From Ensifer sp. PDNC004 (GTDB taxonomy: Bacteria > Pseudomonadota > Alphaproteobacteria > Rhizobiales > Rhizobiaceae), in NCBI RefSeq assembly GCF_016919405.1, contig NZ_CP070354.1, positions 248,001 to 312,000 on the forward strand: DNA of 64,000 nucleotides. The letters run 5' to 3'. Of this stretch, positions 11,101-31,125 are shown in pieces (the stretch's first letter is position 1; each line of letters opens with the position of its first letter). A model generated the notes under the pieces. That model made no database searches, was not told the origin of the DNA, and was given only the letters and a program-made list of their open reading frames with translations. A program made the translations under genes and the position numbers.

Positions 11101-11733
11101 CTAGGGCTGCCGGAGAATGCCTCTCAGGATCGTCTCGGTGATCGTGGCGGCCGCCTTTTCATAATCGTCGGCTTTCAAGCGGGGCTTTCTGAGCGCATCG
11201 ACGGCGACCGGTTCGAAGTCCGAGTAAAACTGCGTCGACGCCCAGAGCATGATGAAAAGATGGCGCGGATCGACCGGCAGCATCTTGCCGGCGGCGATCC
11301 AGCCCTCGACAACGGCCACATGGGTATCCGTGACCTGGCGGATATGCTCGCGATCCTTCCGGGACAGGAAGCGCGCGCCCTGAATCATCTCGCTGGCAAA
11401 GAGCCGGGATTCGGCCATGTTCTTGCGCGTGTATTCCAGCTTCGCCTTGATGTAGAGCTTGAACGCTTCGGCCGGCTCCCGTTCGGGCGAGATGTATTTC
11501 AGCGCATCGTCCCAGCTGGCGATGAGATGTGCGATGATGGCGGTATAGATCTCCTCCTTGGACGAGAAGTAGTAGTAGACATTTGCCTTGGGCAGCCCCG
11601 AAGCCTCGGCAATCTCGGCGATGCGCGTGCCGTCGAAGCCCTTGCGAGCGAAGATTTCGATCCCGGCCTTGATGATGAGCCGCATGTTGCGTTCGCGGAT
11701 GCGCTCTTCGGGATCTCGTACTGCCCTTGCCAT
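11101..11733 (-). CDS. TetR-family regulator, RutR-like
   Basis: A 210-residue TetR repressor. The N-terminal helix-turn-helix spans about residues 20-66 (GTRIAEIAEASGLPKANVYYYFSSKEEIY), and the C-terminal part resembles the ligand domain of RutR/YcdC, for example ASEMIQGARFL and MLWASTQFYSDF. In E. coli RutR binds uracil or thymine and controls pyrimidine degradation. The divergent region to the next gene holds three sites close to the RutR consensus, so autoregulation and control of the UNG-like/GMC operon are likely. Whether the effector is a pyrimidine is unknown. Confidence 0.92.
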   Translation of the reverse strand: MARAVRDPEERIRERNMRLIIKAGIEIFARKGFDGTRIAEIAEASGLPKANVYYYFSSKEEIYTAIIAHLIASWDDALKYISPEREPAEAFKLYIKAKLEYTRKNMAESRLFASEMIQGARFLSRKDREHIRQVTDTHVAVVEGWIAAGKMLPVDPRHLFIMLWASTQFYSDFEPVAVDALRKPRLKADDYEKAAATITETILRGILRQP

Positions 11734-11847
11734 ATGGTTTCGCCTCCATTTCGCTTCGCACCAGGCAATCGTGCGTGGTGGCGGGACTGCTATCGCAATT
11801 GCCGCGTTTTCCAGCGAAAAGCAAGCGTATCGACCTTCGCCAGAAAG

Positions 11848-11863
11848 TTGACGATATGGTCAG
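11848..11863. promoter_or_regulatory. RutR-like box 1 (TTGACGATATGGTCAG)
   Basis: Matches the RutR consensus TTGACCAnnTGGTCAA at 12 of 14 defined positions. It is part of a 21-bp near-direct repeat (GAAAGTTGAC-N5-GGTCAG-type) shared with box 3. It lies between the divergent TetR and UNG-like genes. Confidence 0.72.
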
Positions 11864-11869
11864 AAAAAC

Positions 11870-11885
11870 TTGACCGAGTCGTCAT
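11870..11885. promoter_or_regulatory. RutR-like box 2 (TTGACCGAGTCGTCAT)
   Basis: Matches the RutR consensus at 11 of 14 defined positions, with a perfect left half TTGACC and a weaker right half. It starts 22 bp after box 1, close to two helical turns. Confidence 0.55.
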
Positions 11886-11903
11886 TTTTTATCTTTTTGA
11901 AAG

Positions 11904-11931
11904 TTGACACTTTGGTCAGCTTTTGTCTAGT
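11904..11931 (+). promoter_or_regulatory. RutR-like box 3 overlapping a sigma70-like promoter
   Basis: TTGACACTTTGGTCAG (11904-11919) matches the RutR consensus at 11 of 14 positions. Its first six bases are also a perfect -35 hexamer TTGACA, followed after 16 bases by TCTAGT (11926-11931), a 4-of-6 -10 match. A repressor bound here would cover the -35 of the UNG-like gene, whose ATG is 32 bp downstream of the -10. Confidence 0.65.
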
Positions 11932-11962
11932 CTCACCTTCAACGAACGGAAGAGGAGCCGTG

Positions 11963-12814
11963 ATGCCGATGCGCTTGAGGGAGGCAATGGCGGAAACGTT
12001 TGCGGGCTGGGAGAACGACCTTCCGCCTGTTTGGCGCGATGCGCTCGGCGCCGTCGGCGACGATTTCTCCCGTATCGATGCGGACCTTGATCTCGAGCCG
12101 TGGGAACCGATCTTCCCGGTGCGCCGCGGCCGGGTTTTTCCCGGCCAGCCACGGGGCGCACATGCGCTCGCGGCGTTTGACGGCATTGCACCCGATGGCG
12201 TGCGCTGCCTCGTGCTTGGGCAAGATCCTTATCCCGAGCCGGGTTTTGCAACGGGGCGGGCGTTCGAGGCGGGCAACCTGGCGGCGTGGGGCGAGCTGGA
12301 CAAGATGTTCTCAAAGAGCATCCGCGCCTATATGCAGCTGATCGCGGCTGCGCGGCTGGGCGACGAGGATCTCGCGCGCGATTTCGGCCGGTGGCCGGAT
12401 GTGCGGCATCTGCTTTGCGATCCCGCAGGGTCGTTCGAGCCGCCGAGCCTGATCGCAGATCGTTGGGTCAGGGAGGGGGTACTCCTGCTCAATGCGTCGC
12501 TGACGCTTTCTCGCTTTCGTGTCGATATCGATCCGCACCAGTCGCGCGGTCACCTTGCCTTCTGGCGGCCGTTGATGCTGCGCGTGGTCGACGCGCTTTT
12601 GGCGCGCGGTAAGCCAATCGTCTTCCTCGGCTTCGGTGGCGCGGCTGCTGACATCTTTGCAGAAGCCGGCGTTGCCAAGGGGCGCAAGGATCATGTCGCC
12701 TATATACAGCGCGAGCATCCCGCCTTTGCCGACAAGGTGCTCGGCCGGGAAAATCCTTTCCTTCTCAGCAATTCTCATCTGGAGGCGATGGGCGACCGGC
12801 CCATCGCATGGTGA
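11963..12814 (+). CDS. uracil-DNA glycosylase (UNG, family 1) paralogue with altered motif B
   Basis: A 283-residue protein that aligns along its length with UNG. Motif A is GQDPYP (D88 the catalytic aspartate, Y90 kept, usual final His replaced by Pro). GVLLLNASLTL matches UNG GVLLLNTVLTV, PIVFLGFGG matches the strand before the active-site loop, and NPFLLSNSHLEAMGDRPIAW matches the UNG C-terminus. Motif B, HPSPLS in UNG, reads HPAFAD here, keeping the His (H252) but losing the Ser-Pro-Leu-Ser DNA-clamping loop. It is longer than UNG (about 230). The start follows GAGGAG. It is followed 3 bp later by a GMC oxidoreductase, an unusual place for a repair enzyme. Confidence 0.82.
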   Translation: MPMRLREAMAETFAGWENDLPPVWRDALGAVGDDFSRIDADLDLEPWEPIFPVRRGRVFPGQPRGAHALAAFDGIAPDGVRCLVLGQDPYPEPGFATGRAFEAGNLAAWGELDKMFSKSIRAYMQLIAAARLGDEDLARDFGRWPDVRHLLCDPAGSFEPPSLIADRWVREGVLLLNASLTLSRFRVDIDPHQSRGHLAFWRPLMLRVVDALLARGKPIVFLGFGGAAADIFAEAGVAKGRKDHVAYIQREHPAFADKVLGRENPFLLSNSHLEAMGDRPIAW

Positions 12815-12817
12815 CCC

Positions 12818-14443
12818 ATGGCGCGTAACCCGGAATATGATTTCATCATCGTTGGTGCGGGTTCGGCCGGTTGTGTTCTCGCCAACCGCCTGTCGAAGGA
12901 TCCGGCAAACCGCGTGCTTTTGATCGAGGCTGGCGGCAAGGATCGCAACCCCTTGTTCCGGTTGCCGATGCTGATGGGCAAGCTGTTCCATTCGGGCGTC
13001 TACAACTGGCATTATCACACAGAGCCCGAGCCCCATCTCAACGGCCGCTCGCTCTATTGGCCTCGGGGCAAGGTGCTGGGCGGGACGTCCACCATCAACG
13101 GCATGATCTACGTGCGCGGCAATCGCCATGATTACGATCGGTGGTCGCAGCTCGGGCTGCCCGGCTGGTCCTATGACGAGGTGCTTCCGGCATTCCGACG
13201 TTCCGAGACCCATGTCGAGCGCAAGGACGCTTTCCACAGCGGCGACGGAGAGCTCACCGTCTGCCGGGCACGCGGCAACAATCCGCTGATGGACGTGTTC
13301 TGCGAGGCGGGCATCCAGGCGGGTTACCCGGCCAACGACGACTTCAACGGAGAGACGCAAGAAGGCTTTGGCCGCTACGACTTCACCATCCGCAAGGGAA
13401 AACGGTGGTCCACCTCGTGGGCGTTCCTGCGCCCGGCGCTCGGCCGTAAGAACCTCACTGTGCTGACGGGGGCGGAACTCACGCGTCTGATCATCGAAGG
13501 CGACCGGGCGTGCGGCGTCGAGTATCTGAAGGACGGCGTCCTGGGACGCGCCCGGGCGGCGCGGGAGGTGATCCTCTCTTCCGGCGTTGTCAATTCGCCA
13601 AAGGCGTTGCTTCTGTCCGGCATCGGGCCGGCGGACGAGCTTCGGGCGCTTGGCATCGCACCGGTGCTGGACCTGCCGGGCGTCGGCAAGAACCTCCAGG
13701 ACCATGTCGACTGCGTCATGAGTTGGGAATGCCGCGAGCCGATCACGCTGTTCAGCGACCTGCGGGCGGACAAGCTCATCCCCGCTGTTGCCCAGGGCAT
13801 GTTGTTCGGCGAGGGCGTCACCACGACGTTCCCTTATGAGGCCGGTGCCTTCATCCGTTCGAACGATGGCCTGATTGCGCCCGACATTCAGCTGCATTTC
13901 ATGCCGGCGCTGGAAAAGACAGCCAATCTGCACTTCCCCAATCCGTTCCGAAAGAAGCAGGCGGTGGAAGCCAACCACGGGTTCACGATCCGCGTCGGCC
14001 CCGTCAATCCGGTGAGCCGCGGCGAGATCACGCTGCGCTCGGCGAACGCGACGGACAAGCCGAAGATCCAGGCCAATTACCTCCGCGACGATTTCGACGT
14101 GCGCACGATGATCGATGCCATCCGGCTGACCCGCGACATTGTCGGCCAGAAGGCTTTCGACCGCTATCGCGGCAAGGAGCTGGCTCCGGGGCCGGAAGCG
14201 CTTGACGATGCCGCTTTGACCCGCTGGCTGCGGGCGACCGCGATGACGACGTTTCATCCGGTCGGGACCGCCAAGATGGGTAACGACCGCATGGCTGTGG
14301 TGGACGCGCGGCTCAAGGTGCGCGGCATCGAGGGGCTGCGGGTCGCGGACGCTTCGATCATGCCCGTAATCTCAAGCGGCAACACCAACGCGCCAGCCAT
14401 CATGATCGGCGAGAAATGCGCCGAATTCATCCTGAACGCATAG
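12818..14443 (+). CDS. GMC-family FAD oxidoreductase (choline/alcohol dehydrogenase type)
   Basis: A 541-residue glucose-methanol-choline family flavoenzyme that oxidises an alcohol group. The FAD-binding motif DFIIVGAGSAGCVLA has its GxGxxG at G13-G18 and an acidic ribose contact in LLIEAGG. The GMC signature GKVLGGTSTINGMIYVRG lies near residue 90, and the C-terminal active-site region reads FHPVGTAKMG, with the catalytic His, and later GNTNAPAIMIGEKCAEFI. It starts 3 bp after the UNG-like gene, so the two are translationally linked. The natural alcohol substrate is unknown. Confidence 0.93.
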   Translation: MARNPEYDFIIVGAGSAGCVLANRLSKDPANRVLLIEAGGKDRNPLFRLPMLMGKLFHSGVYNWHYHTEPEPHLNGRSLYWPRGKVLGGTSTINGMIYVRGNRHDYDRWSQLGLPGWSYDEVLPAFRRSETHVERKDAFHSGDGELTVCRARGNNPLMDVFCEAGIQAGYPANDDFNGETQEGFGRYDFTIRKGKRWSTSWAFLRPALGRKNLTVLTGAELTRLIIEGDRACGVEYLKDGVLGRARAAREVILSSGVVNSPKALLLSGIGPADELRALGIAPVLDLPGVGKNLQDHVDCVMSWECREPITLFSDLRADKLIPAVAQGMLFGEGVTTTFPYEAGAFIRSNDGLIAPDIQLHFMPALEKTANLHFPNPFRKKQAVEANHGFTIRVGPVNPVSRGEITLRSANATDKPKIQANYLRDDFDVRTMIDAIRLTRDIVGQKAFDRYRGKELAPGPEALDDAALTRWLRATAMTTFHPVGTAKMGNDRMAVVDARLKVRGIEGLRVADASIMPVISSGNTNAPAIMIGEKCAEFILNA

Positions 14444-14454: not shown

Positions 14455-14775
14455 ATGATCCTGGAACACCGCACCTACACCTTCAAGCCCGGCACGGTCG
14501 ACAAGTGGATGAAGAAGTACGAGGCGGACGGCTTGCCTGTGCAGAAGCGCCATCTGAACAAGTTCGTTGGTCTCTATGTGTCGGAACTGGGCACGCTCCA
14601 CACCACGGTTTTGATGTGGGCCTACGACAGTCTCGCGGACCGAGAAGCGCGCCGGACGGCCATGTATGCCGACCCGGACTGGCAGAAGTTCATCTCCGAA
14701 GTCTGGGCGCTGGACGCAATTCAGAAGCAGGAGGTGATGATCATGAACCCGGCCCCCTATTCCCCGCCCCTTTGA
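14455..14775 (+). CDS. NIPSNAP-family protein
   Basis: A 106-residue dimeric alpha/beta-barrel (NIPSNAP/Dabb-like) protein starting MILEHRTYTFKPGT, a typical opening for the family, and containing the Trp/Asp-rich stretch VLMWAYDSLADREARR. The start at 14455 follows GGGAG; a longer in-frame ATG overlaps the GMC gene. NIPSNAP proteins are often encoded next to catabolic oxidoreductases, but their biochemical role is poorly defined. It could be an isomerase-like accessory or a sensor of reactive aldehydes. Confidence 0.85.
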   Translation: MILEHRTYTFKPGTVDKWMKKYEADGLPVQKRHLNKFVGLYVSELGTLHTTVLMWAYDSLADREARRTAMYADPDWQKFISEVWALDAIQKQEVMIMNPAPYSPPL

Positions 14776-14852: not shown

Positions 14853-15914
14853 ATGACGGACAAGACTGGAAATGGCGCACAGCACATGATGCATCGCCGC
14901 GCATTCCTGCAGGCGAGCGCGGGTGCCGCAGCGCTGGCCTTTGCGGCGACCATCGTCCCGGAATTCGCCCGCGCGTCCGGAGGGCTGGTCGCGCTGGTGC
15001 ACACGCAGGCTGCAGGCGACAATGGTCCGGTGGACCAGATGATCGCCAAGCTCAAGCAGCTTTCGGAAGAAAAGGGTTTTGAGTACCGCGCCATCTACGC
15101 GCAGGACCCTGCAACCTACGAGACTGTCTACCGCACGCTCGGCGACGCCGGAGCGGCGATCATCGTCTCGACCTTCAACGAAGTGGCCGAGCCATTCAAG
15201 GCGCTCGCACCTTCCTACCCGAATACCAAGTGGATCCAGCTGTTCGCCGATCCCTTCGAGCCGGCAATCCCGAATGTGGTGACCGTCTCCTACGACTATT
15301 ATCTTGGCTGCTATCTCTCGGGCGTCTTTGCGGCCAGGATGACGTCGACCGGCAAGACCGGCTTCATCGGCGGGGTTTCCATCCCTCCGCTCAACGCAGA
15401 CTTCAACGCGTTCAAGGCCGGCGTGCATTCCGTTCGACCGGATGCCACGGTTATCGCCGCCTTCGCAGGCTCGTTCCAGGACCCGGCAAAGGGCCAGGAA
15501 ATCGCCACCCAAATGTACAATGATGGCATCGACTACATTCAGACCGACGCGGCGGCCACCGATGGCGGCATCATTGCTGCGGCGAACGAGAAGGAAGGCC
15601 GCATGGTGAGCTGCCTTGCGCCGGGACAGTATGAGCTCGGCCCGAAATCGCTGATCTCGATCGTCAGCCTCGACTTCGGCGTTTCGCTCTACAACGAAAC
15701 CGGCAAGGCGGTCGGGCCCGAATGGAAGGGTGGTGCGCACGAGCATACGGGTCTTGGCACGGGCGTCATCGACTTCATTCTCTCGCCGGTCTTTGCCGAG
15801 CAGGGGCCGGCGGACCTGAACGCCAGGGCGAAGGAAGCGTTGGTCGAGGTCGACAAGGTTCGTGCCGGCATCCTCGATGGATCCATCAAGGTACCTTTCA
15901 ACACCACCCTTTGA
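14853..15914 (+). CDS. BMP-family (PnrA/Med-like) ABC substrate-binding protein 1
   Basis: A 353-residue periplasmic receptor of the BMP family, which binds nucleosides or related compounds in characterised cases such as PnrA. The N-terminus has a Tat-type signal: HRRAFLQ followed by an Ala-rich core and a cut after FARA near residue 36. The mature protein has the two-domain pattern with ALVHTQAAGDNGPVDQ at the start and a DYIQTDAAATDGGI ligand-loop region. It begins a receptor-ATPase-permease-permease set. A second full set starts at 24158. Confidence 0.9.
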   Translation: MTDKTGNGAQHMMHRRAFLQASAGAAALAFAATIVPEFARASGGLVALVHTQAAGDNGPVDQMIAKLKQLSEEKGFEYRAIYAQDPATYETVYRTLGDAGAAIIVSTFNEVAEPFKALAPSYPNTKWIQLFADPFEPAIPNVVTVSYDYYLGCYLSGVFAARMTSTGKTGFIGGVSIPPLNADFNAFKAGVHSVRPDATVIAAFAGSFQDPAKGQEIATQMYNDGIDYIQTDAAATDGGIIAAANEKEGRMVSCLAPGQYELGPKSLISIVSLDFGVSLYNETGKAVGPEWKGGAHEHTGLGTGVIDFILSPVFAEQGPADLNARAKEALVEVDKVRAGILDGSIKVPFNTTL

Positions 15915-15985: not shown

Positions 15986-16055
15986 TCGCTGGGGTTCGCG
16001 GACCGGCTCCAGCCCTTTTGACGGTCGCGAACGCCTGCTCTCGATGGGAACCACA

Positions 16056-17636
16056 ATGTCCAAATCTGCGAAATCGGCCCTGGAGTGCCGCAACGTCACC
16101 GTCAAATTCGGCGACGTGACGGCGTTGTCGGCGGTTTCAGCTTCGTTCACGCCGGGGCAAATCCATGCGGTTGTCGGTCAGAACGGCGCCGGCAAGACCA
16201 CCTTTGCCCGCGTGGCGGCCGGCCTGGTCCAGCCCACTTCTGGCGCCGTCAATGTGATGGGACACGACATCCGGACGGGGCAGGTCAGCGAAAGCCGGGC
16301 CGCCGGGGTGGAACTCGTCCACCAGAGCTTTGCCTTGCCGCCGTCCTTCACGGTTGCCGAAGCCATGGAGTTTGGCGCAACGGGCAGGGGCGGCGTCTTC
16401 AGCCGCAGGGGTCTCGTTGAAAAATGGCGGTCGCATCTTGCGGGTCTCGACGTTCAGGTCGATCTGAACCGGCGGATCAGGGACCTCCCGATCGAGACAC
16501 AGCAGGGGATAGAGATTGCCCGCGCCCTGGTCACGGATGCGCGCGTCCTCATTCTCGACGAGCCGACCGCGGTCCTGTCCCCGGCCGGCATCGACATGCT
16601 GTTCGCGCGCGTTCGCCGCCTTAAGGAACGTGGGGTCACAGTCATCCTTATCCTGCACAAGATCCGCGAGGTGCTGGGCATCGCGGACACAGTCACGGTG
16701 TTGCGGGGCGGCCGGAAGGTTGAAGGGCCGCTGCCGGTGGCGGAAGTTTCAAGTGAGCGGCTGGCCAACCTCATCGTCGGGGAGGCCATAGCCAAGACGC
16801 TCGGTGGCCAAGACCGCGATGCATTGGTCGGAACGAAGCCAACCGCGCATGGGAACTCCGTTCCGCACACGCATGCGGTCGGGCCTGCCATCCTTTCGAT
16901 GAAAGCCGTCTCCACGAGGCCGGACAGCGGGGGCATCGCTCTCGATGCCGTTGACCTCGAGATCCGCCCGGGCGAGATCGTCGGTGTCGCCGGGGTGGAA
17001 GGCAATGGGCAGAAAACCCTGGTGCGGGCGATCTCCGCACTCGCAGATCTCGAAGGCGGAACGATCAATCTCACTGGGCACGACGTGACCTGGCAGCCAC
17101 TTGCCGCACGCCGCAAGATCGGCCTTCGGATCATTCCCTTCGAGCGCAATGTGGAGGGCCTCAGCCTCACGAGCTCCCTCTGGCAAAACTGGAGCGCGCG
17201 CGAACTGTTGCAGGGGAGCTTGCTCAAGGGCATTCGGCCCGCTGCAATCCGTGAAGCTTGCGATCGGTCGCTAAAGGCGTGGAGCGTCCACTATAACAAT
17301 TCCGGGCAGAGGGCCGGGTCGCTTTCGGGCGGCAACGCGCAAAAGGTGATCCTTGCGCGGGAAATCGATCCTGAGGCCAAGCTGATTATTGCGGCCCAGC
17401 CGACACGCGGCCTCGACATCGGGGCGACCGCCTTCGTCTGGCAGGCCCTGCGGCAAGCGCGCGACGGTGGCGCGGCCATACTCTTGATCTCGTCGGATCT
17501 CGACGAGCTCTTCGACATATCGGATCGCGTCGTGGTGATGCTGTCGGGACGCCTGAATGGCGAGTTCCAAGCGCCCTTCGACATAAGCGTTGTGGGGGCG
17601 GCCATGACCGGTGCCGCTGCGGGGGCAAGCGCATGA
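16056..17636 (+). CDS. nucleoside/sugar-type ABC transporter ATPase 1, two fused NBDs
   Basis: A 526-residue double ATPase (YufO/RbsA-like). NBD1: Walker A GQNGAGKTT, Walker B LILDEPTAVL, with the signature weakened to ETQQGIEIARAL. NBD2: Walker A degenerated to GVEGNGQKT, signature LSGGNAQKVILAREI, and Walker B LIIAAQPTRGLDI lacking the usual Glu. Such asymmetry is normal in this family. The start at 16056 follows GGGAA; an ATG at 16044 is possible. Its stop overlaps the first permease by ATGA. It powers import of the BMP ligand. Confidence 0.92.
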   Translation: MSKSAKSALECRNVTVKFGDVTALSAVSASFTPGQIHAVVGQNGAGKTTFARVAAGLVQPTSGAVNVMGHDIRTGQVSESRAAGVELVHQSFALPPSFTVAEAMEFGATGRGGVFSRRGLVEKWRSHLAGLDVQVDLNRRIRDLPIETQQGIEIARALVTDARVLILDEPTAVLSPAGIDMLFARVRRLKERGVTVILILHKIREVLGIADTVTVLRGGRKVEGPLPVAEVSSERLANLIVGEAIAKTLGGQDRDALVGTKPTAHGNSVPHTHAVGPAILSMKAVSTRPDSGGIALDAVDLEIRPGEIVGVAGVEGNGQKTLVRAISALADLEGGTINLTGHDVTWQPLAARRKIGLRIIPFERNVEGLSLTSSLWQNWSARELLQGSLLKGIRPAAIREACDRSLKAWSVHYNNSGQRAGSLSGGNAQKVILAREIDPEAKLIIAAQPTRGLDIGATAFVWQALRQARDGGAAILLISSDLDELFDISDRVVVMLSGRLNGEFQAPFDISVVGAAMTGAAAGASA

Positions 17637-18670
17637 AAGACAGTCTCATCACCGTCGTTCGCAGCCTGATCTTCGTGACGTTCGCGCTCATCCTTTGCGC
17701 GCTCGTGTTCCAGCTTGCCGGCTATAATGCGCCGGTGACACTTTGGGCGGTGCTCGACGGGGCGTTTCTCCGAACCGGGGCGATCGAGCAAAGTCTCCGA
17801 TGGGCACTGCCGCTGTTCATAACGGCCGTCGGTGTCGGCATCTCCTTCCGCGCGGGATTCTTCAACATCGGTGCCCAGGGGCAGTTCTATGTCGGTGCGA
17901 TTTGCGCCGCCTTCGCAGCCGAAGCGGTAAGAGGCGGGCCCGCCTTCCTCGTGATCCCGACCCTGCTTCTAGCCGGCATGCTCGGCGGTGCACTCTGGGC
18001 GCTCTGGCCGGGATTGCTGCGGCTTCGCTCCGGCACCGACGAGGTCATCACCACGCTCATGGGCAACTTCATGGCCGGTCTGCTGCTCGTCTATGTCACT
18101 TCGGGGCCGCTCAAGGATCCCTCGGGCTCCGGTCAGCAGGCATCGAGCCGTCCGCTGGACCCGGCCTACCGCATCTCGGATTCCCTCGGTCTTTCGCCAA
18201 CGATCATCGCGATTGCGGTCGCTGTCGGCATCCTGATGTGGCTGCTGGTCAACCGGACCGCCTTCGGGGTTCTGGCAAGCCTTGCCGGTCGCAACGGCAC
18301 CATGGTGGAGTGGCAGGGCGCACGTCTCTGGAAGCTCGGCCTCTCAAGTTTCCTGATATCGGGTGCGCTAGCGGGTCTTGCCGGTACCATCGAGTTCATG
18401 GGGCCGAACGGCCGCATCGCCTCTGGTTTCCTGCCAGCCCATGGGTTTACGGCGATCCTGATCGCGCTCGTCGCCAACCTCTCCGTTCTCGGGACGGCGG
18501 TGGCCGCGGTGTTCTTCGGCGGGCTGGCGTCGGCGGCGCTTTATCTGCCGATCATGGCCGGGCTGCCGTCGGCGGCGATCGACATCATCAATGCGGCGAT
18601 CGCGCTGTTCATAACGGCAAGGTCGACCGTCATCGATAGGGTGCTGCGTCTCGGAGGGCGCAAGACATGA
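17633..18670 (+). CDS. nucleoside-type ABC transporter permease 1A (YufP-like)
   Basis: A 345-residue inner-membrane protein of the BPD_transp_2 family, with about nine hydrophobic segments. FRAGFFNIGAQGQFYVGA near residues 70-87 is the conserved loop of nucleoside-type permeases, and TDEVITTLMGNFMAGLL near 130-150 is also typical. It overlaps the ATPase and the second permease by ATGA at both ends, so the three are one translationally coupled unit. Confidence 0.92.
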   Translation: MKDSLITVVRSLIFVTFALILCALVFQLAGYNAPVTLWAVLDGAFLRTGAIEQSLRWALPLFITAVGVGISFRAGFFNIGAQGQFYVGAICAAFAAEAVRGGPAFLVIPTLLLAGMLGGALWALWPGLLRLRSGTDEVITTLMGNFMAGLLLVYVTSGPLKDPSGSGQQASSRPLDPAYRISDSLGLSPTIIAIAVAVGILMWLLVNRTAFGVLASLAGRNGTMVEWQGARLWKLGLSSFLISGALAGLAGTIEFMGPNGRIASGFLPAHGFTAILIALVANLSVLGTAVAAVFFGGLASAALYLPIMAGLPSAAIDIINAAIALFITARSTVIDRVLRLGGRKT

Positions 18671-21335: not shown

Positions 21336-21710
21336 GTGGTTGTCGACAAAGGCGGGATCGTATTTGCAAACGGTCAGGGAGAATTCTGGACGGATGAACG
21401 GTGCTACATCACCGAACTGCACAATTGCGACGCGTCGCCCGAGGCGTCGCTTGCCGTCGCCCGGGTGGAGGTCGGGGTTACCACGCAACTGCACAGCCTC
21501 ACCGGTGTGATCGAGCGCTACGTTCTTCGCCAGGGCGAGGGCATTCTCGAGGTCGATGGGGTCAAGCAGAAGCTGCGCGTCGGCGATCAGGCGGTGATAC
21601 CGGCCGGTGCGGCGCAACGTATCGAAAACACAGGCTCGGTCGACCTGGAGTTCTATTGCCTGTGCACGCCGCGCTTTTTCCCGGATTCCTACGTGAACCT
21701 GGAACAATAA
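21336..21710 (+). CDS. single-domain cupin protein
   Basis: A 124-residue cupin_2-type beta-barrel. The conserved motif 1 is partly kept (VTTQLHSLTGVIERYVLRQGEGILEVDG), and motif 2 reads GDQAVIPAGAAQRIENTGS, in which the usual final His is replaced by Gln (AQRIENT). Metal binding may therefore be weak or altered. The GTG start at 21336 is chosen because AGGAGG precedes it by a normal spacing; an ATG five bases earlier is out of frame. Function unknown: a dioxygenase-like, isomerase-like or ligand-sensing role is possible. Confidence 0.85.
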   Translation: MVVDKGGIVFANGQGEFWTDERCYITELHNCDASPEASLAVARVEVGVTTQLHSLTGVIERYVLRQGEGILEVDGVKQKLRVGDQAVIPAGAAQRIENTGSVDLEFYCLCTPRFFPDSYVNLEQ

Positions 21711-23142: not shown

Positions 23143-23162
23143 TCCACTTCTCGACAAGTGGA
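23143..23162. promoter_or_regulatory. palindromic operator between MocR and SDR genes
   Basis: TCCACTT (23143-23149) and AAGTGGA (23156-23162) form a perfect 7-bp inverted repeat around CTCGAC. The centre CCACTT-N6-AAGTGG is the same as in the operator before the cupin at 21256. It begins 6 bp upstream of the MocR ATG, an autorepression position, and about 90 bp before the SDR start. Confidence 0.75.
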
Positions 23163-23249: not shown

Positions 23250-24089
23250 ATGGGTTCCTTTGCCACGAGGGGCGAGCATGCCCCGTTGGCCGTGAGGCAG
23301 GTTGCACCGACGCGCTCGCATGCAAACAAGCGCTACCTGGTGCTTGGCGGCGCCGGCGGCGCCGGCAAGGCGGCTGCAGGATTGCTCGTTGCCGAGGGTG
23401 CCTCGGTCGTCATCGGCGATGTCCGTGCGCAAGCGCTGGAAGAGGCGATTGCCAGCCTCGATCATGACCGCAAGGCACTGTCCGGCGTTGTCGTCGACCT
23501 GGCCGATGCAGGCTCGATCGCAGCTGCGATCAAGGAAGCCGAAGCGCGCCTCGGTGCAATCGACGGGCTGGTAAACTGCGCGGCGATCGTTTGCCATGTC
23601 GATCCGCTCGAAACGCCGTGGAGCGATTGGGAGCGCATCTTCTCCATCAACGTCTACGGCGCGTTCGAGGCAGCCAGGCTCGTTTCCAAGGCAATGATTG
23701 CCAAGGGCATCAAGGGCGCGATCGTCAATGTCGCTTCGGAGGCCGGCAAGAAAGGCCATACGCAGTCGCTGGCCTACAGCGCCAGCAAGGCGGCCATGAT
23801 CAATTTCACCCGGGTTCTGTCCGAAGTGCTTGCGCCGCAGGACATCAACGTCAACTGCGTCTGCCCCGGCGGTATGGCGACGGACATGTTGCGTGAGGTT
23901 GCTGTCGCCTATGGCGACCTGGTCAAGCAGGCGCCCGACGAGGTCTTCAAGCAGCTCGTCAGCTCGCAGTTGCGTCGTCATATCGACCCGGTGGAAGTGG
24001 CGCGGACGATTTCGTTCCTGCTCAGCGACGACGCGATCATCATTCGCGGTCAGGCGATCAACGCCGACGGTGGCGACACGCCGTACTGA
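23250..24089 (+). CDS. short-chain dehydrogenase/reductase (SDR)
   Basis: A 279-residue classical SDR. The nucleotide-binding loop is VLGGAGGAGKAAAG near residues 31-44, and the catalytic set is a Ser in IVNVASEAG followed by Y-x3-K in YSASK; VNCVCPGGMATDM follows as expected. It has about 25 extra N-terminal residues before the first strand. The start at 23250 follows GGGAGGAT. It is divergent from the MocR gene over a shared palindrome, so MocR probably controls it. It would oxidise or reduce an alcohol/ketone in the island's pathway, perhaps with the GMC enzyme. Confidence 0.92.
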   Translation: MGSFATRGEHAPLAVRQVAPTRSHANKRYLVLGGAGGAGKAAAGLLVAEGASVVIGDVRAQALEEAIASLDHDRKALSGVVVDLADAGSIAAAIKEAEARLGAIDGLVNCAAIVCHVDPLETPWSDWERIFSINVYGAFEAARLVSKAMIAKGIKGAIVNVASEAGKKGHTQSLAYSASKAAMINFTRVLSEVLAPQDINVNCVCPGGMATDMLREVAVAYGDLVKQAPDEVFKQLVSSQLRRHIDPVEVARTISFLLSDDAIIIRGQAINADGGDTPY

Positions 24090-24157: not shown

Positions 24158-25177
24158 ATGACGACTACCAGCAAATTCCTGCATATCTGCCTCGGTTCCT
24201 TGCTCGCCGTTGCGGCGACGACAGCGTCCGCCAGGGCCGACGACACGTCCTATGTCCTGGTGACACCGAGCCGCATCGGCGTGAACAAGTTCCTCGGCCT
24301 CGGCAAGACGGGGATCGAAAAGGCCGCCGAGGCTCAAGGGGCGAAAGCGCGCATATTCGAGGGCACGGATCCGTCGACCCGCCGCCAGAACGTTCAGGCC
24401 GCCATAGACATGGGCGCCCCGATCGTCACGGTCATGGGCTTCGAGTTCGGCGACATCATTGCCGATCTGGCACCGGAAAACCCGGAAACGAAGTTCGTAA
24501 TCATCGACACCTGCATTCCGGAAGCACCGGAGAATGTCTATTGCGCGGTGTTCCGCGAACAGGAAATCGCCTATCTCGCCGGGGCCGAAGCTGCCCTGAC
24601 GTCACAGAGCAAGACGGTGGCCGTGATCGGTGCGCTCGATATTCCGTTCCTGCATCGCTACACGGATTCCTACGAACTCGGCGCTAAGGCTGCCAACCCC
24701 GACATCAACGTGCTGCCGACGGCGTGGATCGGCGGAGACAATCCCTTCCAGGATCCGGTGCGGGCACAGACCCAGGCGGTCCTGCAGCTCTCTAACGGAG
24801 CAGACCGCATCTACGCGGTCGCGGCCGGCAGCAACGGCGGCGTGTTCAAGGCGGTGGCGGAAAAGCCGGGAGCGATGGCGATCGGCCTCGACGTCAACCA
24901 ATGCGGCGATGCGCCCGGCGCGATACTCGACAGCACGCTCAAACGCGTGGACGTCGTTCTTCCCGCAACCATCGACGGCATCCTGAAAGGCACGGCTAAG
25001 CCTGTCGAGAGCTTCGGTCTGGCGGAAGGCGGGCTCGAACTCGTTGCCATGTCCGAGGACCTGGCCGCGTCCGGCTGCATGATCGCCAAGGCGCCTGATG
25101 TCATCGGCAAGCTGACCGAGATCCAGGCAAAGATCGTGTCGGGCGCCATCACCGTGCCTGACCCCATGGCCCAATAG
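24158..25177 (+). CDS. BMP-like ABC substrate-binding protein 2
   Basis: A 339-residue periplasmic receptor heading the island's second importer. A Sec-type signal peptide runs through LGSLLAVAATTASARA, with cleavage near residue 26. The body shows VLVTPSRIGVNKFLGLGKTGIEKAA, VTVMGFEFGDIIADLAPENPETKFVIID and AVAAGSNGGVFKA, the BMP/PnrA pattern. I prefer the ATG at 24158, which has GGAG seven bases before it, over in-frame starts at 24140 and 24146. It differs from receptor 1 and carries a Sec rather than Tat signal, so the two systems probably bind different ligands. Confidence 0.88.
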   Translation: MTTTSKFLHICLGSLLAVAATTASARADDTSYVLVTPSRIGVNKFLGLGKTGIEKAAEAQGAKARIFEGTDPSTRRQNVQAAIDMGAPIVTVMGFEFGDIIADLAPENPETKFVIIDTCIPEAPENVYCAVFREQEIAYLAGAEAALTSQSKTVAVIGALDIPFLHRYTDSYELGAKAANPDINVLPTAWIGGDNPFQDPVRAQTQAVLQLSNGADRIYAVAAGSNGGVFKAVAEKPGAMAIGLDVNQCGDAPGAILDSTLKRVDVVLPATIDGILKGTAKPVESFGLAEGGLELVAMSEDLAASGCMIAKAPDVIGKLTEIQAKIVSGAITVPDPMAQ

Positions 25178-25196: not shown

Positions 25197-26702
25197 ATGA
25201 CCTTGCTCCAGATGAAGGGCATCTCGAAGCGATTTGGCAGTCTCGTTGCCAATGACGGGATCGACCTTTCGGTCAAAAGCGGTGAAATCCATGCCTTGAT
25301 GGGAGAAAACGGGGCCGGAAAATCGACCCTGATGAATATCCTGTATGGTTTGCTCAAGCCGGATGCCGGCGAGATCCGGATCGATGGCAAGGCGATGGAC
25401 TTCGCAAGCCCGCTCGGTGCCATCGCTGCCGGTGTCGGCATGGTCCACCAGACGTTCAGGCAGTTTCCCGACCTGACCGTCTGGGAGAACCTGGTGTTCC
25501 AGAACGAACCGGGACAGGGGCCGTTTGTTTCCGCAGCTGCCGCGCGCGATGTCGTGCGGCAGCTCGGGGAAAAACACGGCCTGGAGATTAATCCCGACAG
25601 CCGCGTGCGGGATCTGGCGGTGGGCATTCGCCAGCGTCTCGAGATCCTGAAGGCGCTTTCGCGCCAGGCAAAGGTACTGATACTCGACGAGCCGACGGCG
25701 GTGCTTACGCCGCAGGAGCGCGACAGTCTCTTTGTGGCGATGCGCCATCTGGCAAGCCAGGGCATGGCTCTCATCCTGGTGACGCACAAGATCCCCGAGG
25801 TCATTGCCGTCACCGACGAGATCACGGTCATGCGTGACGGGAGGGTCTCGGGCGCGTTGACGACCCGGCAGACCAACGAGGCGGAGATCATCCGCGCGAT
25901 GGTGGGGCGCAACGTGCCACCGACGGTCGCCGCCAAGGTCACGCCGACCGCACAGCCGATGCTCTCTGTCCGGAACCTGTCGGTGCGAAAGGGCGGCGTA
26001 GCCGTGGTAAACGACGTCACATTCGATGTGCGGCCGGGCGAAATCGTCGGGATCGCCGGCGTTTCGGGAAACGGGCAGCCGCAGTTGATTTCGGCCGTAA
26101 CCGGGCTTGAGGATTCGACCGGCGAGGTCGTCATCGCAGGGCGGAACGTTTCGGGGCTTTCGATCGCCGAACGCCGCGCCGTCGGCATTTCATACGTGCC
26201 GGAAGATCGTCACCTGACGGGCACGGCACCGGCCGCTTCGATCGCCGAAAACATTGCCTTCGGCACGCATAGAACGGCCGCGGTGTCGAGCTACGGGTTT
26301 TTGAAGAAGCAGGCGATCCGCGCGCAGGCCCGCAAGCTCATCGAACAATTCAAGGTGAAGGCAGCCTCGGAAGACGTGCCGATCGGATCGCTGTCGGGCG
26401 GCAACATGCAGAAGGTCGTCATCGCGCGCGAAATCGAGCACGGGTCGCCGCTGATCGTCATCGAAGAGCCGACACGGGGCGTGGACGTCGGGGCGATCGA
26501 ATTCATCCACAAGACCCTGATCGCCGAACGGGACAAGGGCCGGGCCATTCTGGTGGTCTCGTCCGACCTCACCGAGCTGCTGGCGCTCTCAGACCGGATT
26601 CTCGTGATGTTTGAAGGCCGTATCGACGCCAGCCTCAGTGGGAAAGACATGAACGAAGACACCATTGGGAGATGGATGATGGGGGGAGCGGCAGGGGCAT
26701 GA
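25197..26702 (+). CDS. nucleoside/sugar-type ABC transporter ATPase 2, two fused NBDs
   Basis: A 501-residue double ATPase. NBD1: GENGAGKST, Q-loop VHQTFRQFPD, signature-region AVGIRQRLEILKALSRQ, Walker B LILDEPTAVLTP. NBD2: GVSGNGQPQ (degenerate Walker A), LSGGNMQKVVIAREIEHGSP, VIEEPTRGVDV. It is paralogous to the ATPase at 16056 but diverged throughout, so the two sets are not a recent duplication. It begins 20 bp after receptor 2, and its stop overlaps the next permease start by ATGA. Confidence 0.93.
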   Translation: MTLLQMKGISKRFGSLVANDGIDLSVKSGEIHALMGENGAGKSTLMNILYGLLKPDAGEIRIDGKAMDFASPLGAIAAGVGMVHQTFRQFPDLTVWENLVFQNEPGQGPFVSAAAARDVVRQLGEKHGLEINPDSRVRDLAVGIRQRLEILKALSRQAKVLILDEPTAVLTPQERDSLFVAMRHLASQGMALILVTHKIPEVIAVTDEITVMRDGRVSGALTTRQTNEAEIIRAMVGRNVPPTVAAKVTPTAQPMLSVRNLSVRKGGVAVVNDVTFDVRPGEIVGIAGVSGNGQPQLISAVTGLEDSTGEVVIAGRNVSGLSIAERRAVGISYVPEDRHLTGTAPAASIAENIAFGTHRTAAVSSYGFLKKQAIRAQARKLIEQFKVKAASEDVPIGSLSGGNMQKVVIAREIEHGSPLIVIEEPTRGVDVGAIEFIHKTLIAERDKGRAILVVSSDLTELLALSDRILVMFEGRIDASLSGKDMNEDTIGRWMMGGAAGA

Positions 26703-27724
26703 CAGGAGTTGGTCTCGAGACGAAATCTCGATTGACGGCAATCTTGCTGTCCATCGCGGTCGCCGTCGTGCTTGGGGGGCTCGTGGTGCTTTCGACCGGC
26801 GCCAATCCCCTCTCGGTCTATCAGGAAATCGTCCAGGGTGCGCTTCTGGGGCGCGGCCTGGGTGAGACGCTCAGCCGCTCGGTCCCGTTGATCGGCATGG
26901 GTCTTGCAGCCGCAATTGCCTTTCGCGCCGGCCTCATCAATCTTGGCGGCGACGGGCAGATGCTGGTGGGCGGGCTCGCGGCCGCGTTCGTTGCACTCTA
27001 TGTTCCGGCACCAGGGGCCGTGCGGGCCGTGCTCGCCTTGACGGCCGCCATTTGTGCGGGCGGGCTTTATGCCTGGATCGCGGCAGTACTTCAGCTTGGC
27101 CTCGCCATCCCGTTTCTGATCACGAGCCTGCTGCTCAGCTACATCGCACGCGGCGTCACATCCTATCTGGTACGCTACCCGTTGCGCGATCCCTCGACGG
27201 GCATGCCGGAAACCTATCGCGTCGCCTCTGCGGCGCGCCTCCCAAGCAGCATTTTCGATCTGCCGGTCAGCGTCGGAATGTTGATCATGGCCGCGGTTGC
27301 GATTGCCGTCATCGTCAACGACAAACATGGCGTCAACGGCTTCGAGTGGCGAATGACTGGGCTTAATCCGCGTTTCGCCGGGTACTCGGGCACGAACCTG
27401 CCGCGGCAGACGCAGCGGGTGGCCTTCCTGAGCGGCGCTCTTGCCGGTCTGGTTGGGGCGCTGTTGATCCTCGGGCAGCAGTACCGGTTCACCGACGGGG
27501 CCTTGCTTGCGCCGGGCTATACCTGGTCGGGGCTGATGGCTGCGGTTCTTGCGATGGCAAACCCGATCGCGACGGTCGTCACCGCGGCGTTCTTCGCGGC
27601 GCTGCAGGTGGGGGGCTTCGCCATGGAACGGGCGCTCGGTCTTCCGGCTGTCCTCACATGGGTTCTGCAGGCGCTGATCATTCTGTGCCTCGCTGCACGT
27701 CCCGTGTTCTTCAAGAGGCGATAG
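26699..27724 (+). CDS. nucleoside-type ABC transporter permease 2A
   Basis: A 341-residue BPD_transp_2 permease. The start is the ATG overlapping the ATPase stop; an ATG at 26672 would overlap it by 31 bases. The diagnostic loop FRAGLINLGGDGQMLVGGL lies near residues 75-93, and ITSLLLSYIARGVTSYLVRYPLRDP near 140-165. Several hydrophobic segments follow to the C-terminus. It pairs with the next permease, 3 bp downstream. Confidence 0.92.
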   Translation: MTGVGLETKSRLTAILLSIAVAVVLGGLVVLSTGANPLSVYQEIVQGALLGRGLGETLSRSVPLIGMGLAAAIAFRAGLINLGGDGQMLVGGLAAAFVALYVPAPGAVRAVLALTAAICAGGLYAWIAAVLQLGLAIPFLITSLLLSYIARGVTSYLVRYPLRDPSTGMPETYRVASAARLPSSIFDLPVSVGMLIMAAVAIAVIVNDKHGVNGFEWRMTGLNPRFAGYSGTNLPRQTQRVAFLSGALAGLVGALLILGQQYRFTDGALLAPGYTWSGLMAAVLAMANPIATVVTAAFFAALQVGGFAMERALGLPAVLTWVLQALIILCLAARPVFFKRR

Positions 27725-27727: not shown

Positions 27728-28624
27728 ATGCTCAACATGCTTCTTTCGCAGGTCCTCGATCTGATGACGCCGGTGCTTCTGGCGGCGATGGCCGGAACAT
27801 TGTGCGAGCGCGCAGGCGTCTTCAACATCGCGCTTGAGGGCAAGATGCTGGTCGGCGCTTTCGCCGCGGTCGCGGCGAGCGTTGCCTTCGGCTCGCCGAT
27901 GGTTGCGGTTCTGTTCGCCGTCGTCTGCACCGCGGTCTTCGCGTTCCCCCTTGCGCTCGGCGGCGCCCGCTTCGGCGGCGATCCGATCGTAATCGGCATC
28001 GGGCTGAACCTGCTTGCCGCAGGGCTGACAACCTATCTTCTGAGCGCGCTTTTCGGCGTTACCGGCACACTGGTCGATCCCGCGGTGATCGCCTTGCCGC
28101 GCTTCGGCATCGGTGCTCTTGCCGGGATTCCCGTCCTCGGCGCCATCGCCGATGGGCACAATCTGCTGGTCTATCTCTCATGGCTGCTCGTGCTCGTCCT
28201 CAACGTCTACCTGTTTCGCACGCGATGGGGCCTGCGCTTGCGGGGGATCGGTGAAGTGCCGTCTGCAGCAGCGGCGATGGGCGCGAATGTGAACCGTTAT
28301 CAGACGGCGATCGTGCTTCTCGCGGGCGCTCTGTGCGGTCTGGCGGGTGCGCAGCTGGCGCTCGGCTCGGTCGCCCTATTTGCCGAAAACATGACGGCCG
28401 GTCGCGGTTGGATCGCGGTGGTTGCCGTCATGCTTGGGCGCGCCCATCCGCTCGGCATCGCGCTCGCCTGTTTCGGTTTCGGTCTCGCAGACGCGATCGG
28501 CCTCCGGCTGCAGGGCCAGGGCTTGCCGAACCAGATCACCGATATCGCGCCCTACGCGATCACCCTGTTGGCGATGATCGGCCTCGGCCTGCGCGGGGCG
28601 ATGAGAAAGATAAGAAATACCTGA
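27728..28624 (+). CDS. nucleoside-type ABC transporter permease 2B
   Basis: A 298-residue BPD_transp_2 permease. The loop ERAGVFNIALEGKMLVGAF is at about residues 27-45, and ENMTAGRGWIAVVAVMLGRAHP at about 220-241 mirrors the same motif in the first system's B subunit. It completes importer 2 and is followed 10 bp later by the UPF0261 gene, so transporter and split Tm-1 genes appear to form one operon. Confidence 0.92.
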   Translation: MLNMLLSQVLDLMTPVLLAAMAGTLCERAGVFNIALEGKMLVGAFAAVAASVAFGSPMVAVLFAVVCTAVFAFPLALGGARFGGDPIVIGIGLNLLAAGLTTYLLSALFGVTGTLVDPAVIALPRFGIGALAGIPVLGAIADGHNLLVYLSWLLVLVLNVYLFRTRWGLRLRGIGEVPSAAAAMGANVNRYQTAIVLLAGALCGLAGAQLALGSVALFAENMTAGRGWIAVVAVMLGRAHPLGIALACFGFGLADAIGLRLQGQGLPNQITDIAPYAITLLAMIGLGLRGAMRKIRNT

Positions 28625-28634
28625 GGAGGAATGA

Positions 28635-29843
28635 ATGAGTATAGCCAAGACGATTTATGTAGCGGGCACTTTCGACACCAAGGGTGACGAGCTGCGCTAC
28701 GTGGCGGAGCTGATCAGGGCGCAATCGATGCCTGCGGTTCTGGTGGATCTTTCTACCGCCAAGCCTTCGGCGGATGCCGATATCGACGCGAGAGAGGTAG
28801 CCGGTTTCCATCCGGGCGGTGTCGCAGCCGTCTTTACCGGGGATCGCGGCAGCGCCGTTTCCGCCATGGGGGTGGCGTTCGAACGGTTCATCCTGTCGCG
28901 TGACGACGTCGGCGGCATCATAGGCCTTGGCGGATCCGGAGGAACCGCGGTCGTCACCCAGGCCATGCGCGCCCTGCCGGTCGGAACGCCGCGGGTGATG
29001 GTCTCGACGGTGGCGGCCGGAAACGTCAGCGCCTATGTCGGTCCGAACGACATCGCGATGGTGAATTCGATCACGGATATCGCCGGCCTCAACCGGATCT
29101 CGCGAACCGTCCTTGCCAATGCCGCCAATTCCATCGCCGGAATGGTGCGCAACCGGCGGGAAGCCGAGCAGGACGACCGGCCGGCGCTTGGCCTGACGAT
29201 GTTCGGCGTCACCACCCCTTGCGTCACCCAGGTCGTCGAGCAGCTGCGCGACCGGTACGAATGCCTGGTGTTCCACGCGACCGGCATCGGCGGGCAGTCG
29301 ATGGAGAAGCTTGCTTCGTCCGGCTATCTCGCAGGCGTTCTCGACATCACCACCACTGAGGTGTGCGATCTGCTGTTTGACGGCATCTTGCCGGCGACCG
29401 AAGAGCGGTTCGGCTTCCTTGCCCAATCGGACCTTCCTTATGTCGGATCCTGCGGCGCCCTCGACATGGTGAACTTCGCCGGCCTCGAGACGGTTCCGGA
29501 GAAGTATCGCCACCGCAATCTCTATGTGCACAACCCGCAGATCACGCTGATGCGCACGACGGTCGACGATAATGTCGCGATGGGCAAATGGATCGGCGAG
29601 CGCCTGAACCGCAGCATCGGTCCGGTTCGCTTCCTTCTGCCGATGGGCGGGGTGTCGCTGCTCGATGCACCGGGCCAGCCTTTCCACGACCCGGAGGCAG
29701 ACGAGGCCCTGTTCACCGCCATCGAAAATACGGTTGAGCAGACCGACGAGCGTCGCGTCCTGCGCGTGCCGTACGCGATCAATGCGCCCGAATTCAGTTC
29801 CGAAATCCTTCGTCATTTCAACGAAATCAGTAGAGGCAGTTAG
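28635..29843 (+). CDS. Tm-1-like ATP-binding protein (UPF0261)
   Basis: A 402-residue UPF0261 protein corresponding to the N-terminal domain of tomato Tm-1. Recognisable parts are [19 protein letters not shown] at the start, a glycine-rich nucleotide-contact segment [16 protein letters not shown] near residues 95-110, and [16 protein letters not shown] soon after. The natural reaction of the family is unknown; the plant protein binds ATP and blocks viral replicase. The start follows GAGGAGGA. It is one base from the PEP-hydrolase-like gene, which encodes the other half of Tm-1, so the two probably act as a complex. Confidence 0.9.
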
Positions 29844-29844
29844 T

Positions 29845-30678
29845 ATGAAGTTTGAAAGACGCCAGTTGCTGGACAAATTTCGCCAGCAGATCAAAGCGAA
29901 GATCCCGATCATCGGCGGCGGCGCTGGCACCGGCCTTTCGGCCAAATGCGAGGAAGCCGGCGGCATCGACCTCATCGTCATCTACAACTCCGGCCGCTAC
30001 CGCATGGCCGGACGAGGGTCGCTTGCCGGCCTCCTTGCCTATGGCAACGCCAACGAGATCGTGCTCGACATGGCACGCGAGGTGTTGCCCGTGGTCAAGC
30101 ACACGCCGGTTCTTGCCGGCGTGAACGGCACGGATCCGTTCTGCAATTTCGATTTCTTCCTGGACCAGCTGAAGGCCGTCGGTTTCGCCGGCATTCAGAA
30201 TTTTCCGACCGTGGGTCTCATCGACGGCACCTTCCGGGCCAATCTCGAAGAGACGGGCATGGGTTACGCCCTGGAGGTCGACCTCGTTCGCCTGGCGCGC
30301 AGCAAAGACATGCTGACCACGCCCTATGTGTTTTCGGCCAACGATGCCCGGGCCATGACGGAGGCGGGGGCAGACATCGTCGTCGCCCATATGGGGCTGA
30401 CGACCGGCGGCGCGATTGGCGCTGACACCGCGCTGACGCTTGAGGCCTGTGTCGATGAGGTCAACGCGATCGCGGCTGCGGCCCGAAGCGTCAATCCCGA
30501 CATTATCGTCCTGTGCCATGGCGGCCCGATCGCCGAGCCGGAGGATGCCCGCTACATCCTCGAGCGGTGCCCGGGTTGCCACGGGTTTTATGGCGCATCC
30601 AGCATGGAGCGTCTTCCGGTCGAAAAGGCCCTCGTCGCCCAGACGCAGGCCTTCAAGAAACTTGTCATCCAGCACTAG
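29845..30678 (+). CDS. phosphoenolpyruvate-hydrolase-like TIM barrel (PF09370-like)
   Basis: A 277-residue TIM-barrel protein of the PEP_hydrolase/Tm-1 C-terminal family. It begins [29 protein letters not shown], and strand-end motifs [44 protein letters not shown] and [14 protein letters not shown] are characteristic. The first ATG after the preceding stop is used, with a 1-bp gap. Despite the family name, an enzymatic reaction is not firmly established. It presumably works with the UPF0261 protein on an intermediate of this island. Confidence 0.9.
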
Positions 30679-30687
30679 GAGGGAAAT

Positions 30688-31125
30688 GTGGCAAAGGCAT
30701 ATGCAAGCGCAGTGATCGATGCGCCGATTGAAACCGTCTGGAAGATCGTTCGCGACTTCAACGGCCTGGCGACCTGGCACCCGGCCATCGCCAGCAGTGA
30801 AATCGAAGAGGGACGAGGCAGTGCCGAAGTCGGTTGCGTGCGCTCCTTCTATCTTCAGGATGGAGCCCATGTTCGCGAGCAGCTCCTTGCCCTCAGCGAT
30901 AGCGAGCATTCGCTCTCCTACAGCTTCGTGAAACCGGCCTTTCCGGTGACGAACTATGTTGCGGGGATCAGGCTGCTTCCGATCACCGACGGCAACCGCA
31001 CCTTTGTCGAATGGACCGCCGTTTTCGACGAGGCACCGGAGGATGCCGGAAAGTACGTGGAGATCATCTCTACGCATGTCTTTGCAGCCGGCTGGTCGGC
31101 GCTCCGGGCGAAGCTCGCCGGGTAG
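30688..31125 (+). CDS. SRPBCC-family protein (polyketide cyclase/START-like)
   Basis: A 145-residue helix-grip protein starting at GTG preceded by AGGAGGG. The family hallmark is visible as ASAVIDAPIETVWKIVRDFNGLATWHPAIASSEI at the N-terminus, and a long C-terminal helix (EIISTHVFAAGWSALRAKL) closes the hydrophobic pocket. Such proteins bind or transform small aromatic or lipid molecules. It is the last gene of the operon begun at 24158 and is followed by a strong hairpin. Confidence 0.9.
   Translation: MAKAYASAVIDAPIETVWKIVRDFNGLATWHPAIASSEIEEGRGSAEVGCVRSFYLQDGAHVREQLLALSDSEHSLSYSFVKPAFPVTNYVAGIRLLPITDGNRTFVEWTAVFDEAPEDAGKYVEIISTHVFAAGWSALRAKLAG

Follow-up and report, generated by a model that had tools for sequence, protein, structure and literature searches.

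Uracil-DNA glycosylases (UNG) are, to our knowledge, known only as a DNA-repair family that acts only on DNA, which they contact through a Pro-rich loop, a Gly-Ser loop and a Leu loop (HPSPLS). Pyrimidine nucleoside catabolism of the RihA/DeoA type includes, as far as we know, no UNG-like protein, GMC flavin oxidoreductase or NIPSNAP, and we know of no settled metabolic role for NIPSNAP or for the pair of proteins that correspond to the two halves of Tm-1. Genes of these families stand together in Ensifer sp. PDNC004, in a 64,000-nucleotide stretch (contig NZ_CP070354.1, positions 248,001 to 312,000; hereafter, the window) of an 833,710-base contig in a genome of 6.78 Mb. Positions 11101-31125 of the window hold 19 intact genes, of the families named in an initial annotation that had read them as a single catabolic island. 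The region is, instead, two adjacent operons: block A (11101-21127), with genes for a RutR-like TetR regulator, an UNG-like protein, GMC, NIPSNAP, a BMP importer and an amidohydrolase, and block B (21259-31125), with cupin, MocR, short-chain dehydrogenase/reductase (SDR), a second BMP importer, a Tm-1 pair and an SRPBCC protein. We propose, with a probability of roughly 60%, that block A is a dedicated operon that imports and degrades a uracil-type compound, either a pyrimidine nucleoside or one resembling it; for both blocks, gene content, conservation, operators, residues and fold are what was observed, and activities and substrates are predicted from them.

The TetR gene of block A (11101..11733; YcdC/RutR C-terminal domain, Pfam TetR_C_3 129.8 bits) lies on the minus strand. 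On the plus strand follow the genes for the UNG-like protein (11963..12814), GMC (12818..14443), NIPSNAP (14455..14775), the BMP-family substrate-binding protein, receptor 1 (14853..15914; Pfam Bmp 132.9 bits), the ATP-binding protein (16044..17636) and two permeases (17633..18670 and 18667..19560) of the ATP-binding cassette (ABC) importer 1, and an amidohydrolase of the TRZ/ATZ, 5′-deoxyadenosine/5′-methylthioadenosine (MTA) deaminase-like type (19619..21127). Relatives of block A were collected by a pattern scan with the UNG-like protein, one genome per species; 108 candidates were confirmed and the best 80 kept. With the window, Sinorhizobium meliloti pSymA (L003) and Ensifer canadensis (L004), these form a set of 83 loci. 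The UNG-like gene is present in all 80 by construction, because the loci were found through its product. By tblastn, the GMC gene follows it within at most 250 bases in 78 of the 80 loci, and the order UNG-GMC-BMP-ATP-permease-permease is kept in 68. Among the 83 loci, GMC was found in 81, TetR in 80, NIPSNAP in 80, BMP in 78 and the ATPase in 77, several of the BMP and ATPase misses being short stretches. An independent search of 199 Rhizobiaceae genomes (UNG-like protein at ≥49% identity, GMC at ≥71%, at most seven GMC candidates scored per genome) found the two proteins in the identical 16 genomes. Seven weaker UNG-like matches in this sample comprise one distant homologue (33% identity, genome G065) and six partial matches that were taken to be ordinary ung genes. 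The hosts of block A, mostly Rhizobiales, are Ensifer, Rhizobium, Mesorhizobium, Shinella, Phyllobacterium, Labrys, Kaistia, Bauldia, Variovorax, Silicimonas and environmental Brucella, together with many metagenome bins.

Clustering of open reading frames from the 80 loci (≥45% identity) gave five groups that occur in at least four loci and do not overlap known block A genes. Pfam analysis of one member each of three groups returned the phosphorylase, a solute-binding protein and, for its shadow frame, no match; of the other two groups, one is found in 15 loci at varying positions and one, of 96 amino acids, in 4 loci. One alphaproteobacterial metagenome bin (L123) carries two UNG-GMC pairs of block A type (1-4526 and 10001-12825) and two TetR genes within 13 kb. 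An open-access literature search, in which one listing was judged by its title and the start of its abstract, found no paper on the gene set of block A or B, in agreement with the earlier statement that no pathway with this set was known to its author.

The fold of the UNG-like protein matches UNG, DNA-bound structures included, and it has the uracil site in common with family 1 UNG: Asp, Tyr, Phe, Asn and His are each kept in 82 of 82 sequences, at positions given in UNG residue numbering. The loops that contact DNA are, in contrast, replaced in nearly all block A-type members, whose gene sits in a catabolic operon. The Leu-loop motif HPSP and the WGS of the Gly-Ser loop occur in 0/82 sequences, PPS of the Pro loop in 3 and the Ser at the Gly-Ser position in 2, while the genome's own canonical ung, encoded elsewhere, has all three motifs. 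The proteins are mostly acidic (isoelectric point 4.7-7.1, median 5.2; 7.1 for the canonical ung of the same genome), and the protein of the window scores 65.8 bits against an NCBIfam ung cut-off of 185.75. Since the uracil pocket is kept and most of the parts that grip DNA are lost, the UNG-like protein may have become a metabolic enzyme, and its substrate is presumably other than DNA. We tentatively suggest, at somewhat less than even odds, an UNG-fold nucleosidase: a repair glycosylase recruited to act on a free nucleoside, whose uracil-type base it would release or process. This nucleoside might be a (deoxy)uridine with a 5-hydroxymethyl group or an oxidised sugar, which the partner GMC either produces or consumes. 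The surrounding catabolic operon would then be a conserved one that has escaped recognition, its genes being labelled at present as DNA repair and choline dehydrogenase. Alternatively, the protein could still act on DNA as a glycosylase and have a protective role in the operon, excising a nucleoside analogue that has been imported and then incorporated into DNA. This would fit the complete uracil site, the match to DNA-bound structures and an operon that imports compounds resembling nucleosides, of which some might end up in DNA, but it is made unlikely by the loss of HPSP and WGS from all 82 sequences, of PPS from 79 and of the Ser from 80, by the acidic proteins and by the canonical ung elsewhere in the genome.

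Genome G065 encodes, outside a block A-type operon (L049, 5957-6874), an UNG-like protein of about 308 amino acids that is less closely related (28-33% identity); it has GNDPY in place of GQDPY and keeps the WGS motif. Around its gene, only a 26% partial amidohydrolase match was found among the block A genes.

The nature of the substrate is suggested first by the regulator, whose best PDB matches are RutR (3loc, 137 bits). An excerpt of the RutR study (PMC10891134) gives W77, Y97, W167, Q171 and Q179′ as uracil contacts; by these, W77, Y97 and W167 are kept in 76 of 76 members of the block A family and Q171 in 73, and Q179′ is kept in none (L 33, V 25, I 14, T 3, M 1). Three RutR-type operators, TTGAC-N5-GGTCA, stand between the TetR and UNG-like genes, at 11848-11862 (exact), 11870-11884 (one mismatch) and 11904-11918 (exact). 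At least one such box with at most one mismatch is present in each of the 72 TetR/UNG intergenic regions whose limits could be set, against 0.007 per region in mononucleotide shuffles, and the E. coli rutR-rutA site fits the box with one mismatch. The block A regulator is thus like RutR in sequence, in uracil-stacking residues and in box architecture. A closer RutR relative (49% identity) is encoded elsewhere in the same genome (C2:3835363).

The second pointer is the slot downstream of the permeases, whose content varies among the 83 loci. VOC, nucleoside hydrolase and amidohydrolase genes occupy it in 16 loci, the first two just before the third; a nucleoside hydrolase gene alone in 6 (and one more at a stretch end); nucleoside hydrolase and amidohydrolase in 4; VOC and amidohydrolase in 3 (plus one); VOC and phosphorylase in 2 (plus one); and all four genes in L131. 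Nothing was recognised in 4 loci, three of which have fewer than 200 bases left, and in 9 the second permease was not reached. The nucleoside hydrolase of the relatives is nearest to RihA, a pyrimidine-specific enzyme (PDB 3g5i, 236 bits). The phosphorylases of L120 and L137 score 518.8 and 520.8 bits with the thymidine phosphorylase model PRK05820 (cut-off 269), and 521.7 and 528.7 with TIGR02643, under its cut-off of 570.7. Some relatives of block A therefore have in their slot an enzyme of the RihA/DeoA type, whereas the window has neither; VOC and nucleoside hydrolase genes are present in S. meliloti pSymA and E. canadensis and missing from the window, whose genome has, at other sites, genes for three nucleoside hydrolases and for one protein with a PYNP_C domain.

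The importers of both blocks have the domain set of the BMP/PnrA importers (BmpA, BmpD and PnrA), and the best PDB match of receptor 1 is thymidine-binding BmpA (9q1u, 75.7 bits). According to an excerpt of the BmpA study (PMC13325309), its ligand residues Phe27, Phe176, Asp225 and Lys242 make aromatic stacking and ribose-side contacts. Receptor residues were placed by alignment to BmpA, with Phe27 outside the aligned stretch; the stacking Phe176 equivalent is kept in 75 of 75 receptors of the block A type. The residues and boxes of the regulator, the RihA-like hydrolase and the thymidine phosphorylase therefore point to a uracil-type pyrimidine nucleoside or an analogue, not to guanine, and the uracil site of the UNG-like protein and the BmpA match of receptor 1 count among the same pointers.

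A number of observations speak against a pyrimidine nucleoside operon, or limit it. The regulator, with Q179 replaced, differs from RutR in lying below the RutR equivalog cut-offs (TIGR03613, 176.3 versus 368 bits; PRK15008, 150.7 versus 230), and the hydrolases of L004 and L106, for which RihA is the best of the listed models, miss the equivalog PRK10443 (280.5 and 299.4 versus 433 bits). Nucleoside hydrolases bind calcium with Asp15 as one ligand; in 27 of the 29 nucleoside hydrolases of block A loci the motif is changed to TDPGQDQ, unlike those of L128 and L131, which keep DTDPGQDD, as does the genome's own nearest nucleoside hydrolase (53% identical). In contrast to the BMP/PnrA importers, receptor 1 has, at the positions taken from the BmpA excerpt, Leu for the ribose-side Lys242 equivalent in 75/75 sequences, and the Asp225 equivalent is D, S or A in 36, 23 and 16, so that Asp is absent in 39/75. 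A plain ribonucleoside is therefore doubtful, and a free base, another sugar or a substituent is possible. The UNG-like genes of L141 and L143 have no GMC gene despite 2.6 and 4.6 kb of downstream sequence, and NIPSNAP was not found in L128 and L133, where the sequence is long enough to show it; the block A set is therefore not absolute. L143 also has no NIPSNAP and indeed no other block A gene beside the UNG-like one; the family may therefore function outside the block A operon as well. The roles of NIPSNAP and GMC in block A are guesses. Finally, the known enzymes closest to the amidohydrolase use adenosine-type or triazine substrates, its gene stands alone in the downstream slot in 35 of the 83 loci (the window and 34 others), and the second-best PDB match of receptor 1 is an atrazine-type receptor (6pi5, 67.3 bits).

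The last three points would fit a purine, a triazine or another amine-bearing heterocycle as the substrate, with the amidohydrolase as the key enzyme and the pyrimidine resemblances only ancestry. The nearest PDB matches of this TRZ/ATZ-type enzyme are MTA/S-adenosylhomocysteine deaminase and atrazine chlorohydrolase, and receptor 1 resembles 3s99 as well as 6pi5. Such a substrate is nevertheless quite improbable: no amidohydrolase was found in the slot of the six loci with only a nucleoside hydrolase and the two with VOC and phosphorylase (at least 2.5 kb of sequence), in which the UNG-like and GMC genes are present, and the RutR residues and the thymidine phosphorylase point to pyrimidines. 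The initial annotation had called the enzyme guanine-deaminase-like; this label was rejected (TIGR02967, 129.7 versus 375.4 bits), as was 8-oxoguanine deaminase (PRK08203, 235.3 versus 532 bits).

That the whole 20 kb forms one integrated pathway, as originally supposed, might be argued from the tight adjacency of the blocks in the window, repeated for cupin and MocR in L068, and from the membership of both importers in the BMP family. The blocks have, however, separate regulators and operators, with RutR-type boxes at 11848-11918 and MocR sites at 21259 and 23144, which confirms the two dedicated regulators with local operators described earlier. Among the 41 loci whose sequence extends 700 bases or more beyond the amidohydrolase gene, cupin and MocR genes follow block A only in L068, and L066 and L067, as close to the window as L068, do not have them there. 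In genome G106, no block A gene was found in the 6 kb upstream of the block B cupin gene, and block A lies on a different contig. The adjacency of A and B is therefore local; the single island was rejected on synteny, and we consider a common pathway very improbable. The expected co-occurrence of the families held for block A, which is strongly conserved. The reading of the region as catabolic, nucleobase- or nucleoside-type, with two BMP importers and real, intact genes, was borne out; the one island was not, and the pointers are to a pyrimidine-type compound for block A and to a nucleoside, perhaps a purine one, for block B, rather than to a single guanine, hydantoin or triazine pathway.

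Relatives of the GMC protein are named choline dehydrogenase. It passes the broad model PRK02106 (662.6 versus 605 bits) and falls below the BetA equivalog TIGR01810 (586.2 versus 732.1 bits), and BetA was rejected as its identity. Relatives at 57-60% identity stand in other transporter contexts (L156, L167-L169), which does not settle its substrate. Catabolism of a choline-like osmoprotectant by block A is very improbable, for although the PRK02106 score and the best PDB match, named oxygen-dependent choline dehydrogenase, would favour it, the BetA cut-off is missed, no betaine gene is among the identified operon genes, and GMC of the block A type occurs, in the 199-genome sample, only in genomes with the UNG-like protein.

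For a pyrimidine nucleoside operon, one can picture the following sequence of events. The RutR-like repressor would sit on two or three RutR-type boxes and be freed by a uracil-like ligand, as its conserved residues and the boxes suggest, and the compound would be taken in by the BMP importer. A glycosidic or similar bond would then be cleaved. This could be the task of one of a swappable set of enzymes, represented in relatives by thymidine phosphorylase or a diverged hydrolase of the RihA type, or else of the UNG-like protein, read here as an UNG relative that has ceased to act on DNA and may use the free nucleoside, oxidised or not. The GMC flavoenzyme could oxidise an alcohol of the substrate (of the sugar or a ring hydroxymethyl group), the amidohydrolase could remove an exocyclic amine where one is present, and NIPSNAP and VOC might handle an intermediate.

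Block B would be a second, independently regulated nucleoside importer unit. The MocR gene (21727..23136, minus strand; GntR helix-turn-helix and aminotransferase fold) is flanked by two operators, CCACTT-N6-AAGTGG, one upstream of the cupin gene (21259..21276) and one between the MocR and SDR genes (23144..23161). The remaining genes lie on the plus strand and encode the cupin (21336..21710; PF07883), the SDR (23250..24089), the BMP-family receptor 2 (24158..25177), the ATP-binding protein (25197..26702) and permeases (26672..27724 and 27728..28624) of importer 2, a UPF0261 protein similar to the N-terminal part of Tm-1 (28635..29843; PDB 3wry, Tm-1 protein, 323 bits), a PEP_hydrolase/TIM-barrel protein similar to its C-terminal part (29845..30678; PF09370, 445.8 bits) and an SRPBCC-family protein (30688..31125). 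Receptor 2 retains the ribose-side residues of the BMP/PnrA importers, by the contacts in the BmpA excerpt (Asp in 14/14 sequences, Lys in 13/14).

Judged by its BMP receptor and UPF0261 genes, block B recurs in a single further genome of the sample, G106 (81-90% identity), which has exact MocR sites at both positions, including upstream of its cupin gene (L147). Seven other loci with a receptor of the BMP2 type gave no exact match to the operator; near sites were one with one mismatch in L149 and one each with two mismatches in L155 and L157. The BMP2-type receptor occurs in 15 other genomes, and the loci compared were that of G106 and 12 more (42-48% identity). Seven of these 12, which do not have the full block, have a 67-79% identical cupin and an amidohydrolase nearby (L149, L151-L155 and L157). 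An SDR gene (53-54% identical) precedes the importer in L148 and L150, which also have a nucleoside hydrolase; L158 and L159 have a nucleoside hydrolase near the importer, and L156 a GMC gene. A gene-by-gene scan of L153 identified a TRZ/ATZ deaminase, a purine nucleoside phosphorylase (329 bits, cut-off 218) and two SDRs, and of three plasmid loci with relatives of the block B importer, L161 and L162, not L160, end with a nucleoside hydrolase gene. These related loci point to a nucleoside, perhaps a purine one, as the substrate of block B, in which the Tm-1 pair and SRPBCC protein may stand in for the nucleoside hydrolase that accompanies some of the related SDR-BMP importers.

The halves of Tm-1, which is a single gene, are two genes in block B, adjacent and in order. 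They are neighbours in all eight family loci (L058-L065, of which L058 and L059 are block B itself) and in 7 of 7 plasmid loci, three of which have SRPBCC as the third gene (L005, L176 and L179). Long open frames had suggested a bacterial fusion of the halves, but this was rejected, as they lie in different frames in 7 of the 8 loci and share a frame in L061. While the pair of block B stands behind a nucleoside-type importer, sugar ABC genes and a Gfo/Idh/MocA dehydrogenase gene are near it in four of the seven plasmid loci; our guess is that the pair acts after sugar oxidation.

Upstream of block A, positions 6180-10861 of the window contain genes for a family III CoA-transferase, enoyl-CoA hydratase, a LysR regulator and ferredoxin, and an amidohydrolase-like frame. 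Directly 3′ of block B is a gene for a 729-amino-acid protein with a C-terminal OmpA domain (31540-33729), and further on are a close-set four-carbon acid sugar kinase-like gene (SBD_N/NBD_C), FCD GntR regulator gene and PdxA-family gene (34089-37961), as well as genes for the alpha and beta subunits of NAD(P) transhydrogenase (46664-49709), on this 0.83 Mb contig.

If the metabolic reading of the UNG-like protein is correct, a repair glycosylase that accompanies an importer has turned into a catabolic enzyme, keeping its base pocket and dropping its grip on DNA. To call such genes uracil-DNA glycosylase in Rhizobium, Ensifer and Mesorhizobium records would then mislead, as would the adjoining label choline dehydrogenase in Sinorhizobium and Ensifer plasmids. 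The two operons also place NIPSNAP (block A) and the Tm-1 protein pair (block B) in specific settings that lend themselves to testing.

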